Assembly: GCA_004195045.1 (NCBI GenBank)
Contig: SGBC01000002.1
Location: forward strand, 310,001-374,000
Reading direction: 5' to 3'
Length of the DNA stretch: 64,000 nt
DNA from: Candidatus Acididesulfobacter guangdongensis
GTDB lineage: Bacteria; SZUA-79; Acidulodesulfobacterales; Acidulodesulfobacteraceae
Part shown: positions 25,638-48,019 of the stretch, piece after piece
Position numbering within the stretch: the stretch's first letter is position 1
Layout: the number at the start of each line of letters is the position of its first letter
Made by a program: the position numbers and the translations under genes
Notes under the pieces: generated by a model
Databases searched by the model: none
What the model saw: the letters and a program-made list of their open reading frames with translations, nothing else
Told to the model about the DNA's origin: nothing

Positions 25638-27668
25638 ATGAAGCTTAATAAATTGATGCAGAATACAGATGATTTCAAAATTATATCTTTTATTGGAAAC
25701 AATTCTGATAAAAATATATGTCTGGACGCAGGGAATGCAAATGTAAATATAGATGCGTATAAAGATTTAGATATAGATATAAAAGGAATATCTAACGATT
25801 CGCGAAATATTTCGGAGGGGTACCTTTTTGCCGCAAGAAAAGGAAACAATATAGACTCGAATAAATACATAAGGGATGCGGCAGAAAAGGGAGCGTATTG
25901 TATTCTTACCGATGAGCAGATAGGCGGCGCTTTAGAATCTTACATAAACGAATATAATAAAAATGCTATGAATCGCGGAAAAAGCGGCATATCTGTAATT
26001 ATAGTCGATGATGCGTTAAAGGCGTATGCGGTTATATCAAGGAATTTTTTTAACAGACCTGCAATGAAATTGAAAATGGCGGGTATCACCGGAACAAACG
26101 GAAAAACTACGACTTCCTACCTGCTTAATTCAATTTTAAACACTGCAGGTTTTTTTTCAGGTTTAATAGGTACTATAGATTATAAAATAGCATTTAACGA
26201 TAAAGATAACGGAATTGATATTCCTTCAGTAAACACGACGCCGGATTCTTATATGCTTAATGATATGTTAAACAGTATGATTTTAAATAACCTTAAATCA
26301 TGCGTTATGGAGGTATCTTCTCATAGTATTATTCAGAGGCGGACATACGAAATTGATTTTGATATAGCGATATTTACAAATTTGACCCGCGACCATTTGG
26401 ACTATCATAAAGATATGGAATCATACTATCAGGCAAAAAAACTTTTATTCACCGAAGTACTGTCTGAGAGTTTAAAAAATAAAAAATATGCAGTAATAAA
26501 TAACGATGACGAATATGGAGTGCGGTTAATTAGTGAGCTAAGTGAACAGAAGAGTGTAAATAATTTTAACGTCATAACTTACGGCTTAACCGAAAAAGCC
26601 GATGTTTTTGCAAAAGATATAAAATCCACTACAAAGGGGCTTGAATTTAAATTATATTATAATAATTTAATTAATAAAATAAATTATAATTTTAAAACGC
26701 CGGCCGGTGTTCAATTTTTTATTGTAAAATCAAGTTTAATGGGGAGTTTTAATGTATATAATATGTTAGCTGCCGCTACCTCCGCTTTTGCGCTATCGGT
26801 TGATAACGAAAATATTTCTAAGGGCATTTCAGCTTTAACGAGCGTACCCGGCAGAGTAGAAAAAATTAGAATAAATATTAATAGCAATAACGGCAATAGT
26901 AATAGCGATAGTAATAACGGCGACGGCAATAAGAGCAATGGCAGTTCCGTTAACAGCCATAAAAACGGCAATTGCAATATAGATAATAACGAGGCGATTC
27001 CCTTAGTTTGCGTTGACTACGCCCATACCGACGATGCATTAAACAGAGTGCTGTCCGCTCTGAGAGATATTACCTCCAATAACTTAATATGTGTTTTCGG
27101 ATGCGGCGGCGACAGAGATAAAGGTAAACGTCCGATGATGGGCAGGCATGCCGGAAGATTAGCCGATATTACCGTTATTACGTCAGACAATCCAAGAAGC
27201 GAAAACCCGATGTCAATTATTAAAGAAATAGAAAACGGAATAAAAGAGGAAAATGTTTTTTTTATATCTTGCGATGGCAGCATAGGAGACATAAACAGAT
27301 TGAAAAATGAAATAAGAAAATTCAATACAGGTAAAGATAATAACAATAGCAAATATAATAGCAAAGATACTATCAATAGCAAATATGATAATAAACATAA
27401 TACCGATAAAGATAAAGATAATAGAAGCATTCAAGGCACAGAATACGCCGGAGACGATATTAATATTATAGGCAACGATAGGCACGCGCATATATATACA
27501 ATAGTACCTGATAGAGAAAAAGCTATAAAAACTGCCCTATCTGTAGCATGTTCAGAAAAAGACACCGTGCTTATATCCGGCAAAGGACATGAAGACTATA
27601 TGATAATAGGCGCAGATAAAATCCATTTCAGCGACAAAGAAGAAGTCTTAAAGTTTTATAATTTATAA
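25638..27668 (+). CDS. murE: UDP-MurNAc-tripeptide synthetase MurE with two Asn-rich inserts
   Basis: Adds the third amino acid to UDP-MurNAc-L-Ala-D-Glu. At 676 residues it is about 170 longer than usual. The ATP motif GTNGKTTTSYL is near 153-163. DNPR at 517-520 identifies the meso-diaminopimelate-specific form. The C-terminal GKGHEDYM is normal. Extra length comes partly from two Asn/Ser/Lys/Asp-rich, low-complexity insertions: about residues 412-453, just before the ligase-domain VCVDYAHT segment, and about 562-605. Both keep the frame, and the conserved motifs on either side are intact, so the gene looks functional. Confidence 0.93.
   Translation: MKLNKLMQNTDDFKIISFIGNNSDKNICLDAGNANVNIDAYKDLDIDIKGISNDSRNISEGYLFAARKGNNIDSNKYIRDAAEKGAYCILTDEQIGGALESYINEYNKNAMNRGKSGISVIIVDDALKAYAVISRNFFNRPAMKLKMAGITGTNGKTTTSYLLNSILNTAGFFSGLIGTIDYKIAFNDKDNGIDIPSVNTTPDSYMLNDMLNSMILNNLKSCVMEVSSHSIIQRRTYEIDFDIAIFTNLTRDHLDYHKDMESYYQAKKLLFTEVLSESLKNKKYAVINNDDEYGVRLISELSEQKSVNNFNVITYGLTEKADVFAKDIKSTTKGLEFKLYYNNLINKINYNFKTPAGVQFFIVKSSLMGSFNVYNMLAAATSAFALSVDNENISKGISALTSVPGRVEKIRININSNNGNSNSDSNNGDGNKSNGSSVNSHKNGNCNIDNNEAIPLVCVDYAHTDDALNRVLSALRDITSNNLICVFGCGGDRDKGKRPMMGRHAGRLADITVITSDNPRSENPMSIIKEIENGIKEENVFFISCDGSIGDINRLKNEIRKFNTGKDNNNSKYNSKDTINSKYDNKHNTDKDKDNRSIQGTEYAGDDINIIGNDRHAHIYTIVPDREKAIKTALSVACSEKDTVLISGKGHEDYMIIGADKIHFSDKEEVLKFYNL
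26870..26998. repeat. In-frame low-complexity insert in murE (first)
   Basis: About 43 codons dominated by AAT/AAC and AGC/AGT, reading Asn, Ser, Gly and Asp, lie between two conserved MurE segments. The pattern is a cryptic trinucleotide repeat. Confidence 0.8.
27322..27450. repeat. In-frame low-complexity insert in murE (second)
   Basis: Iterated AAA GAT AAT, AGC AAA TAT AAT codon groups give a Lys/Asp/Asn/Tyr-rich segment of about 43 residues in the C-terminal domain. Confidence 0.75.
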
Positions 27669-30286: not shown

Positions 30287-30458
30287 TGTTTTTTAATAAA
30301 ATTTACAATATTGACAATGCGGCGCAATAAAATATATAGCGATTAGAAAATAGATATAATTAACAGAGTTGATATATAGTAATAAGAAAATTATTTATAT
30401 AATGAGATAGATTATATATAATATTAATTAAAAAATATTTTTATAATAAAATTTATTA

Positions 30459-30500
30459 AAAATATATAAAAATATATAAAAATATATAAAAAAATATAAA
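30459..30500. repeat. AAAAATATAT tandem repeat
   Basis: Three to four copies of a 10-base A/T unit lie in the mraY-murD spacer. Confidence 0.6.
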
Positions 30501-30562
30501 AAATTTGTATTTATGTATTATATAATATAGTAGGAAAAATTATAGCAAAATTAATAAAAATT

Positions 30563-32191
30563 ATGGAAAATTTAAATACTCTAATTATAGGTTACGGCAG
30601 AACAGGCAGAGCGGTATTGGATTTCTTGAAGAAAAATAACGCTAAAAATAGTACTGCTATTTATGATGAATTTTTAAATGACGGTGATATAAATAAATTA
30701 AATCAAAACGATGACGGCGTATTGTTTTTTAACAATAATAGTGCGCATGATTTTTTAAAAAATAAAATTGACGACATTGGCACTACTGTGATAAGTCCGG
30801 GGATTCATAGAAATAATCATATCGTTTTGCAGCTTAGACGGCACAGGAAATATATATGCAGCGAGATAGAATTCGCTTATAAAAATTTAATGCAGGATTA
30901 TAATCATTGTTATAATTATAAATATGATTATAGCATCAACAATTACAACAATAATAACAACAACAACAATTACAACAACAACAATAATAATAACAATAAT
31001 AATAACAATAATAATTGCAACAATAATAACGACAGCGGCAATGAAACTGCCGGCGACTGCGGCATGAAGCTTTTTAAACCGCAGAAGCCAAGAATATTGG
31101 CTATCACCGGCACGAATGGGAAAACTACCGCGACATCTATGTGCTCTGCAGCGGCAAGCGTTTCCGGCATCAAAGCTTTTACGGGAGGTAATTTTGGAAT
31201 TCCTTTTATTGACGGCGTCAGAGAAAAAGATTGCAGTAATTTTATTTTAGAAATATCCAGTTTTCAGTTAGAGTGGGTTTATGAATTTAATTCCGATGCT
31301 GCCGTATTATTAAATGTTCAAGATGACCATCTCGACAGATATGAAAATTTTGACGAATACAGGCTGACTAAATATAAAATATTTAAAAATCATACTATTA
31401 ATGATACGGCAATATTAAATTATGAGGATTATAACGCTGCTATAGTGAAGGATATAATAGGTTCTTTGCCTATTTTGTTCGGTTTTGATGAAAATAAATG
31501 TAATATTTACTATAAAGATGAAACTATTTATTTTAAATTAAAAGAATTTTACGGTATCGACGATAAAATATCCTTAAAAGATTTTAAAGATAAAAGAAAA
31601 TTCGTGATAGAAGATATGATGGCTGCTTCAGGCGCTCTGCTTGCTTTTGGGATACCGTTAGATGCTATAGAAAAATCATTCAAAGATTATAAATTACTAA
31701 AACATAGAGTGGAATTTATCGGAAATATTGATAATATTAATTTTTATGACGATTCAAAAGCGACAAATCCGGCAGCTGTAATAAGCGCCCTTGAATCAGT
31801 CAAAAGTCCGGTAGTTCTGATTTTGGGCGGTAAAGATAAAGGTTTTAATTATGATATTTTAATTGAACCGGTAAAAAAGCATGTAAGAGCATGTATTTTA
31901 ATTGGCGAGACGGCAGATATGATATATAAAACTTTAAACGGTACCGTTGATATGATTCGGGCTTCCGATATGAACGATGCTGTTAAAAAAGCTTATAATG
32001 CAGCATTGTCAGAGTTTGAATCGCATGCATATTCGAGAGCGGCGGGCAGCCCCGTGGACTTTCAATGTTCGGTTCTGCTTTCTCCTGCGTCGTCAAGTTT
32101 TGATATGTTTAAAGATTATAATGAAAGAGGGGAAGTGTTTAAAAAATGTTTTAATAAATTAAGAGAGACAGAGAGACTAATAAAAGCATAA
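30563..32191 (+). CDS. murD: UDP-MurNAc-L-Ala:D-Glu ligase MurD with poly-Asn insert
   Basis: Adds D-glutamate to UDP-MurNAc-L-Ala. At 542 residues it is about 90 longer than most MurD. The N-terminal UDP-binding domain starts IIGYGRTGRAVLDFL; the ATP motif ITGTNGKTTATSM is near 181-193; ligase signatures (FYDDSKATNPAAVISAL, LILGGKDKGFNY) are intact. The extra length includes residues 126-156, where 28 of 31 residues are Asn (runs of 8 and 14), placed between the N-terminal and ATPase domains. The frame is open through the tract. This domain hinge could tolerate a flexible linker. Confidence 0.92.
   Translation: MENLNTLIIGYGRTGRAVLDFLKKNNAKNSTAIYDEFLNDGDINKLNQNDDGVLFFNNNSAHDFLKNKIDDIGTTVISPGIHRNNHIVLQLRRHRKYICSEIEFAYKNLMQDYNHCYNYKYDYSINNYNNNNNNNNYNNNNNNNNNNNNNNCNNNNDSGNETAGDCGMKLFKPQKPRILAITGTNGKTTATSMCSAAASVSGIKAFTGGNFGIPFIDGVREKDCSNFILEISSFQLEWVYEFNSDAAVLLNVQDDHLDRYENFDEYRLTKYKIFKNHTINDTAILNYEDYNAAIVKDIIGSLPILFGFDENKCNIYYKDETIYFKLKEFYGIDDKISLKDFKDKRKFVIEDMMAASGALLAFGIPLDAIEKSFKDYKLLKHRVEFIGNIDNINFYDDSKATNPAAVISALESVKSPVVLILGGKDKGFNYDILIEPVKKHVRACILIGETADMIYKTLNGTVDMIRASDMNDAVKKAYNAALSEFESHAYSRAAGSPVDFQCSVLLSPASSSFDMFKDYNERGEVFKKCFNKLRETERLIKA
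30938..31030. repeat. AAC/AAT codon tract in murD
   Basis: 31 codons, of which 28 are AAC or AAT, interrupted by two TAC and one TGC. The mixed codons suggest age or selection for Asn rather than a fresh pure-repeat expansion. Confidence 0.9.
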
Positions 32192-38343: not shown

Positions 38344-39408
38344 ATGTTTAATAAAAATAATAATAAAAAAAAGGGAGATATAAAAAATTACGGCGCAGGT
38401 AACTTTCATATACAAAATGAAAATATAAAAAAAAAGAAAGAGAATAAAAAAAATAAAAAAATTAATGAGGTTGAAAAACTTGTAAACAATAACAGCAATA
38501 ATAATAAGAGCAGAAATAAAAATAATAATATTAATAATAATTTTGCAAATAGAAACAGCGATAGCAATCTTAATAATAATAGAAAGAAGAATAAAAATAA
38601 TGATTTTAATTTTATTAAAACGATATATGTGATTGGATTTATCGTAGCAAGCGCGGTTATTATTTATTTTGCATACAATAAAATAAATTATTATTTTTTT
38701 AATAAGAAAATATTTAAATTAAAAAAAATTATTATTAAGGGCATTAAGATTAATAAAAAAGAAAAGCTGAAAATATTAAAATTATCCAGTCTTTATTATG
38801 GTGAAAATTTAATTAATATAAATTTAAAACGTATTACCCGGCTTGTTGCATCGGACAGATGGTATAAAGATATCACAGTGTATCGTAAATATCCCGATGA
38901 GATTTTTATATTACTAAAAAGAAGAAAGATAGGAGCAATTTTGAACGACGGCAGATTATATTATTTAAGCAGAGCAGGGTTTGTCATCGGGAAGATTAAC
39001 GGGGAAGCGGGATATGATTATCCGGTTATCACCGGAATTACAGGTAGCATTACATCAAAGAATGTCGGTTATTATTTGTCCGGTATACATAAAGCGTTAA
39101 GTTTTTTAAGGACTATAAAGCATTCTTATTTAAAAGATGAACTGAGCGAAATACATATTCAGAAAGATAAAGGGGTCGTAGTTTATACAAATAGCGGCGA
39201 AGAAATAAAATTTGGAAACGGAAATATTAAAAATAAATTAAAAACGTTAAAAATGCTGCAGTATGAAATAAAAAAAATTAATCTTAAATATGATGGGTAT
39301 ATAAATCTTGAATATAAAAATGAAGCGGTAGTAAAAGTTAATAGCGGTTCTAGGGTTTTGCCGGCTAATTATAAAAAGATTATAATACCGCCGGATATAT
39401 GGAAGTAA
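38344..39408 (+). CDS. ftsQ: Cell division protein FtsQ with Asn/Lys-rich N-terminus
   Basis: Single-pass divisome protein of 354 residues. Roughly the first 90 residues are a Lys/Asn-rich, low-complexity cytoplasmic tail. A membrane segment follows (about 97-115: YVIGFIVASAVIIYFAY). Then come the POTRA domain (FKLKKIIIKGIKINKKEKLKILKLSSLYYGENLININL) and FtsQ/DivIB-type beta domain. Identity rests on topology, POTRA-like sequence and position before ftsA. It links early and late divisome proteins. Confidence 0.85.
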   Translation: MFNKNNNKKKGDIKNYGAGNFHIQNENIKKKKENKKNKKINEVEKLVNNNSNNNKSRNKNNNINNNFANRNSDSNLNNNRKKNKNNDFNFIKTIYVIGFIVASAVIIYFAYNKINYYFFNKKIFKLKKIIIKGIKINKKEKLKILKLSSLYYGENLININLKRITRLVASDRWYKDITVYRKYPDEIFILLKRRKIGAILNDGRLYYLSRAGFVIGKINGEAGYDYPVITGITGSITSKNVGYYLSGIHKALSFLRTIKHSYLKDELSEIHIQKDKGVVVYTNSGEEIKFGNGNIKNKLKTLKMLQYEIKKINLKYDGYINLEYKNEAVVKVNSGSRVLPANYKKIIIPPDIWK

Positions 39409-47660: not shown

Positions 47661-48019
47661 GGGGGCGCAAAGGTTTCGACGGAGAGACCAAGACTTTTGG
47701 CTGCATGTCGAGGATGTCTTGTAGGCTCGTTAAATATTCAAGGCATAAATATAATCGCAGAAAACTACGATTACGCATTAGCCGCTTAATCCCGGTTAAC
47801 GTTCTTAAAGCTGAAACCTGTAGGTTTTAAGAACGACATTTACAGGTCAGGACGTTTAAATATCCTTTGTTTAAATGTCTTAAACTTTAGAGGACTGCTG
47901 AAAAAAGGTCTTGTTTATTCTTTGCTTTTTTAAGCGGGTGCTCAAAAGAATAAAATAAACATGTAGATGTCTGAGTTAAAGATCTTCGGACGCGGGTTCG
48001 ATTCCCGCCGCCTCCACCA
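47661..48019 (+). ncRNA. ssrA: Transfer-messenger RNA (tmRNA)
   Basis: The 5' end GGGGGCGCAAAGGTTTCGAC and the 3' end GGTTCGATTCCCGCCGCCTCCACCA-like T arm and acceptor pair as in tRNA-Ala. The CCA end is encoded. The open frame for the tag starts at GCA 47757 and ends at TAA 47787, encoding AENYDYALAA. The terminal ALAA is the standard degradation signal. It works with SmpB, encoded 36 bases downstream, to rescue stalled ribosomes. Confidence 0.97.

Follow-up and report, generated by a model that had tools for sequence, protein, structure and literature searches.

Plasmodium and Dictyostelium provide the main known examples of proteomes rich in asparagine repeats, and whether such repeats do anything is debated. 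In Plasmodium falciparum, deletion of the single 28-Asn repeat of the essential protein Rpn6 had no detectable effect (PMC3749963; PMC5389722). For Dictyostelium discoideum, the title of a mutation study announces a high rate of slippage mutations (PMC7466956; PMC9234386). In prokaryotes, Asn is abundant in the simple-sequence proteins of low-GC species only, while low-complexity regions in general are reported to be highly conserved and to under-represent Asn (PMC6821194; PMC1524752).

We report that Asn-rich insertions in housekeeping proteins are a genus-wide trait of the acid-mine bacterium Candidatus Acididesulfobacter and a bacterial parallel to Plasmodium proteins. The locus discussed here lies in a window of 64,000 nucleotides (the whole stretch of DNA that was analyzed) from Ca. 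Acididesulfobacter guangdongensis, in an assembly of 5 contigs. The AP2 genome of this genus comprises 2,217,123 bp in 5 scaffolds (PMC6776010, Table 1), and the main text of the paper describing it does not refer to asparagine, repeats or mismatch repair (PMC6776010).

The Asn-Rich Linker of MurD

The tract lies in murD, encoding UDP-N-acetylmuramoyl-L-alanine--D-glutamate ligase (window positions 30563..32191, + strand; 542 aa). The product scored 330.2 bits against TIGR01087 (cut-off 211.95) and matched Pfam Mur_ligase_M and Mur_ligase_C. The best 33 PDB matches of its structural model in Foldseek were all MurD (E 4e-30 to 8e-23), consistent with the three-domain Mur ligase fold. TM-scores for the best structure match were moderate (0.57/0.68), as expected because Mur ligase domains are movable. 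The motifs GTNGKTT, GGN, ExSSFQLE, DDHLDRY and DDSKATN, which we take to have catalytic roles, are intact and occupy columns that are invariant or nearly so among 28 MurD sequences. The gene is part of a mur/fts cluster (murE, murF, mraY, murD, ftsW, murG and murC, with ftsQ further downstream), and the placement of the tract in an essential enzyme by the sequence-only reading is upheld. Elsewhere in the window, at 47661-48019, there is a tmRNA gene with the tag peptide AENYDYALAA.

Residues 126-156 of MurD (30938..31030, + strand) read NNYNNNNNNNNYNNNNNNNNNNNNNNCNNNN, with 28 of the 31 residues being Asn in runs of 2, 8, 14 and 4, and the DNA carries the 12-bp unit AACAATAATAAT in tandem. At the genome background Asn frequency of 6.45%, the chance of such a composition in one window of that size is about 2e-30. 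The tract, including the runs of 8 and 14 described earlier, is real. It sits in the linker joining the N-terminal and central domains. Its earlier description as lying just before the ATP-binding loop was loose: the tract is indeed on the N-terminal side of the P-loop GTNGKTT (residues 183-189; 31109..31129, + strand), the first motif of the central domain and invariant in the 28 sequences, but 26 residues separate the two. The tract belongs to a 58-residue genus-specific linker insert (residues 115-172; 30905..31078, + strand) that is absent from sister genera. AlphaFold assigned pLDDT values below 50 to residues 131-171, with folded domains on either side, and the insert is thus predicted to be a flexible, unstructured linker between intact domains.

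Gain, Loss and Length Turnover of the Linker

Counted from EIEFAY to GTNGKTT, the MurD linker has 76 residues in our genome (G000), 63 in G001, 86 in G003, 80 in G004, and 78 in both G006 and G002. It is Asn-rich in all six of these genomes (of seven in the genus), and the comparison with related genomes suggested by the sequence-only reading thus found Asn-rich linkers at the same site of MurD in five other, independently assembled genomes. The seventh genome, G005, has a linker of 18 residues, while the linkers of 21 sister-genus genomes have 13-20. Between G000 and G001, the DNA flanking the linker is 95-97% identical with at most one 3-base gap, whereas the linker itself is 39 bases, or 13 codons, longer in G000, in frame. 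All linker length differences preserve the frame, and the remaining two frames hold stops.

An error of sequencing or assembly in a low-complexity region, which the sequence-only reading had named as the outcome that would overturn the tract, is very improbable. Short-read assemblies are unreliable in repeats, and the short linker of G005 is on a contig of 3,967 bp with a coverage of 2.8, such that the deletion there could be an artefact. However, Asn-rich linkers of varying length, all in frame, recur at the same site in independent genomes from different samples, our genome comprises 5 contigs, and many genes show the pattern.

In the MurD tree, G005 branches within the genus, after G004 and G002/G006. 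Since G005 is nested in this way, loss of the insert is the simplest reading; the insert was probably lost in G005 and on these sequence comparisons appears dispensable. These data bear on whether selection made the linkers. Under an adaptive explanation, long, uncharged, Asn-rich disorder would be selected for hinge flexibility, solubility or slower interdomain translation, with DNA repeats as mere raw material. Six of the seven genomes of the genus have kept the linker at much the same length (63-86 aa), and its edges are conserved in part, which is in line with this idea. Conversely, G005 has a MurD without the insert, and the linker interior is barely conserved, its DNA being 50-52% identical to that of G002/G006 compared with 76-81% in the flanks. 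Together with the evidence from other proteins and from intergenic DNA given below, this makes an adaptive origin unlikely, though it is the strongest of the alternatives that we considered. Linkers of relatives differ by whole blocks as well as by substitutions, which speaks against a second alternative, namely that high AT content and relaxed selection produced Asn-rich linkers by point mutation with no special repeat process.

Asn-Rich Insertions Across the Proteome

The sequence-only reading had treated the tract as a peculiarity of MurD; it is instead one instance of a genus-wide trait. Asn-rich regions, defined as at least 9 Asn in 20 residues, numbered 35 in 441 gene calls of the genus and 2 in 413 gene calls of sister genera (p 9e-9). 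This comparison covered 580 kb from six genus genomes and 480 kb from sister genera, with stretches chosen for AAY hits excluded, and the gene calls were simple longest-ORF calls. At the DNA level, ten consecutive AAY codons were present in 6/7 genus genomes, 0/23 sister-genus genomes and 12/356 genomes of other families. The suggestion that such tracts are unusual for bacteria thus holds, with only 12/379 genomes outside the genus having one.

Within our own genome, where 7 of the 20 stretches listed for Asn-rich regions had been picked for AAY hits, such regions were found in MurD, MurE, FtsQ, a CobB/CobQ-like amidotransferase, GlmU, the B12-dependent ribonucleotide reductase NrdJ, HypF, FolE2, UvrC, LptA, a tRNA nucleotidyltransferase-like protein, a B12/radical-SAM protein and glycosyltransferases. 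The same stretches were kept in the synonymous-shuffle and repeat-period analyses below. Several of the regions fall where family matches are interrupted, which places them in loops or between domains. Their position between aligned domains or segments in MurD, MurE, a GT1-type glycosyltransferase and UvrC would fit adaptive linkers, while their occurrence in functionally unrelated proteins counts against such an origin. As side observations, a HypE-like protein with a 13-Asn run (L154, G006 contig C111) and a 1,490-aa TamB-like protein with a 16-Asn run (L153, G005 contig C229) were named by eye, and an ORF containing 103 Asn was seen in L149 (G004 contig C10). An AAY array of approximately 215 bp on G004 contig C66 has no ORF with an Asn run of at least 8 and was left out of the protein tracts.

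In the mur/fts cluster, inserts relative to sister orthologues amounted to 110-187 residues in MurE, 58-123 in MurD and 26-55 in FtsQ, and there were none in MraY, FtsW, MurG, Ddl or FtsA. MurE (window 25638-27668) has several genus-specific insertions totaling 148 residues in our genome. One, Asn-rich, is between the middle and C-terminal ligase domains (residues 413-449; 26874..26984, + strand), and another, rich in Asn, Lys and Asp and with a 30-bp tandem repeat in its DNA, is C-terminal of the Pfam Mur_ligase_C match (residues 566-614; 27333..27479, + strand). In FtsQ, an Asn-rich N-terminal region precedes the POTRA domain (residues 41-90; 38464..38613, + strand). The inserts of the cluster are 31% Asn and 10% Lys, compared with 7% Asn elsewhere. 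If composition alone were responsible, the Lys codons AAA and AAG should be favored equally with AAY, in contrast to what is seen.

Tandem Repeats in Genus DNA

In the genus, 8-42% of non-coding DNA consists of tandem repeats; the figure is 12% in G010 and 0-5% in other sister genera. An example from the genus is an intergenic 10-bp tandem repeat upstream of murD, with 5-6 copies of a AAAATATATA-like unit (30442..30504, + strand). Non-coding GC is 0.19-0.24 in the genus and approximately 0.25-0.35 in sister genera, a difference that an explanation by composition alone would use. Nonetheless, non-coding tandem repeats in the genus exceed a second-order Markov control 9-25-fold, and coding DNA of our genome is more repetitive than its synonymous shuffles (0.0085 vs. 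0.0051 ± 0.0002), making composition alone an improbable account. The presence of this repeat excess between genes, where protein selection does not reach, also weighs against adaptive linkers.

Repeat periods were multiples of three in 87/109 coding arrays and 97/310 non-coding arrays (p 8e-19), and the contrast persisted without our own genome (p 7e-10). G010, the nearest sister genus in the MurD tree, combines a short MurD linker with intergenic DNA rich in repeats (L125-L126), and the DNA repeat trait may therefore predate the protein insertions. A CRISPR-array-like set of approximately 37 copies of 70-72-bp units was also observed in our genome (L069:11774-14996; contig C1, approximately 601774-604996).

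Codon Order Within Asn Tracts

A clear signature of tandem duplication in the order of AAC and AAT codons was expected in the MurD tract but did not show in the shuffle and lag tests. The tract had a repeat score of 100 against a shuffle mean of 114.6, with 267 of 300 synonymous shuffles scoring at least as high, and its third-base lag tests did not reach significance (p 0.11 at lags of 12 and 15 bp). Inside it, the 12-bp unit forms a perfect repeat of 24 bp (permutation p 0.08). For 58 pooled Asn tracts, no excess of matching third bases was found at lags of 3-24 bp, and at the 3-bp lag there was a deficit (z -2.5). Although all coding DNA taken together is more repetitive than synonymous shuffles, neither the MurD tract nor the pooled Asn tracts are. 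Slippage thus left no clear signature within the Asn tracts themselves.

The AAC/AAT order in the MurD tract looks random, and for this reason a slippage origin of the tract is something that we infer. The tract is either old enough for synonymous mixing or was retained for its amino acids. The latter is what adaptive linkers would predict, with selection keeping the amino acid and not the underlying repeat; random order is also in keeping with composition alone, as is an AAC share of 26% in tracts, near the 23% in the remainder of genes. From its mixed codons the sequence-only reading had concluded that the tract is no pure product of recent slippage. The randomness of the order bears out the observation, but the conclusion was too strong given the 24-bp repeat, the 13-codon difference from G001 and the repetitiveness of coding DNA.

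Mismatch Repair

MutS1, MutS_V and MutL were above cut-off in none of 30 family genomes (19 of them with completeness of 90% or more and contamination of 5% or less), with controls as expected. MutS_V was found in 41/42 genomes of other families, including all 12 that bear a ten-codon AAY tract. Actinobacteria have NucS. In our searches NucS had no match in the genus and 3 partial matches in other genera, and the genus therefore presents as a mismatch-repair-deficient lineage lacking detectable MutS, MutL and NucS. DnaQ was uninformative as a genus-specific difference, as the genus and its sisters alike have only weak matches, none above cut-off.

Absence of MutS and MutL is at most permissive, because the sister genera are without them too, and as the entire cause of the repeats it is ruled out on the same ground. 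The loss is not sufficient, since it is family-wide and only this genus and, between genes, G010 are repeat-rich. It is also not necessary for isolated AAY tracts, since the 12 unrelated tract-bearing genomes all have MutS. The loss of mismatch repair, which characterizes the whole family, may allow repeats to grow but cannot by itself account for the difference between genera.

Proposed Origin of the Linkers

We consider it probable that the Asn-rich linkers, including that of MurD, arose through mutation of tandem repeats in AT-rich DNA, with reading frame and protein fold acting as filters. Replication slippage or tandem duplication would often create short A-rich tandem repeats in such DNA and alter their length. 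These repeats would be free to accumulate between genes; within genes, a change would survive only if it kept the frame and fell in a surface loop or domain linker. Among A/T-rich repeats, the AAY frame would encode soluble, stop-free Asn, such that Asn-rich insertions build up, with AAC and AAT later mixed by point mutation. The MurD tract would then be translated and form a flexible link from the N-terminal to the ATP-binding domain. This proposal draws on the excess of Asn and repeats in the genus, in-frame length turnover, predicted disorder, lineage-specific gain, one probable loss and the lack of detectable MutS and MutL. As applied to MurD, it would have slippage making the tract, missing mismatch repair permitting it, and the linker having no function of its own.

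More tentatively, we can picture a MutS/MutL-free lineage in which one genus took on eukaryote-like repeats, with AT-rich arrays between genes and a continual supply of Asn-rich loops in essential enzymes, tolerated and lost harmlessly; we regard this wider picture as possible, though somewhat doubtful. A genus with insert-free close relatives and an assayable MurD that occurs naturally with and without the insert offers a clean test of repeat neutrality. Similarly, the apparent family-wide lack of MutS and MutL offers a natural test of the effect of mismatch repair on repeat content.

Comparison With Known Systems

Mycobacteria share with the genus the lack of MutS and MutL and repeat variation in coding DNA, but there the repeats are GC-rich and concern an individual locus (PMC3176237). 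Biased tracts occur likewise in low-complexity and simple-sequence proteins of other prokaryotes (PMC6821194; PMC1524752); those of the genus differ in being Asn-dominated, fast-changing and spread throughout core enzymes. D. discoideum similarly has a repeat-rich genome, with microsatellites and Asn/Gln tracts (PMC7466956; PMC9234386). It is a eukaryote in which the mutation rate was measured, whereas the genus is known here from sequence comparison.

A close likeness is to P. falciparum. Its genome is AT-rich, its housekeeping proteins of unrelated kinds have Asn-rich low-complexity insertions, and its repeats also occur between genes, are filtered by frame in exons and are proposed to spread at the DNA level (PMC3749963; PMC5389722). 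The genus likewise has Asn-rich tracts in many unrelated proteins, an intergenic repeat excess and an in-frame filter in genes. It has approximately 8 Asn-rich regions per 100 genes, while approximately 24% of P. falciparum proteins have homorepeats, the two measures being different. Unlike P. falciparum, it is a bacterium, with random codon order in its tracts and no MutS or MutL detected. The MurD of G005, which is without the insert, parallels the Rpn6 deletion in P. falciparum.
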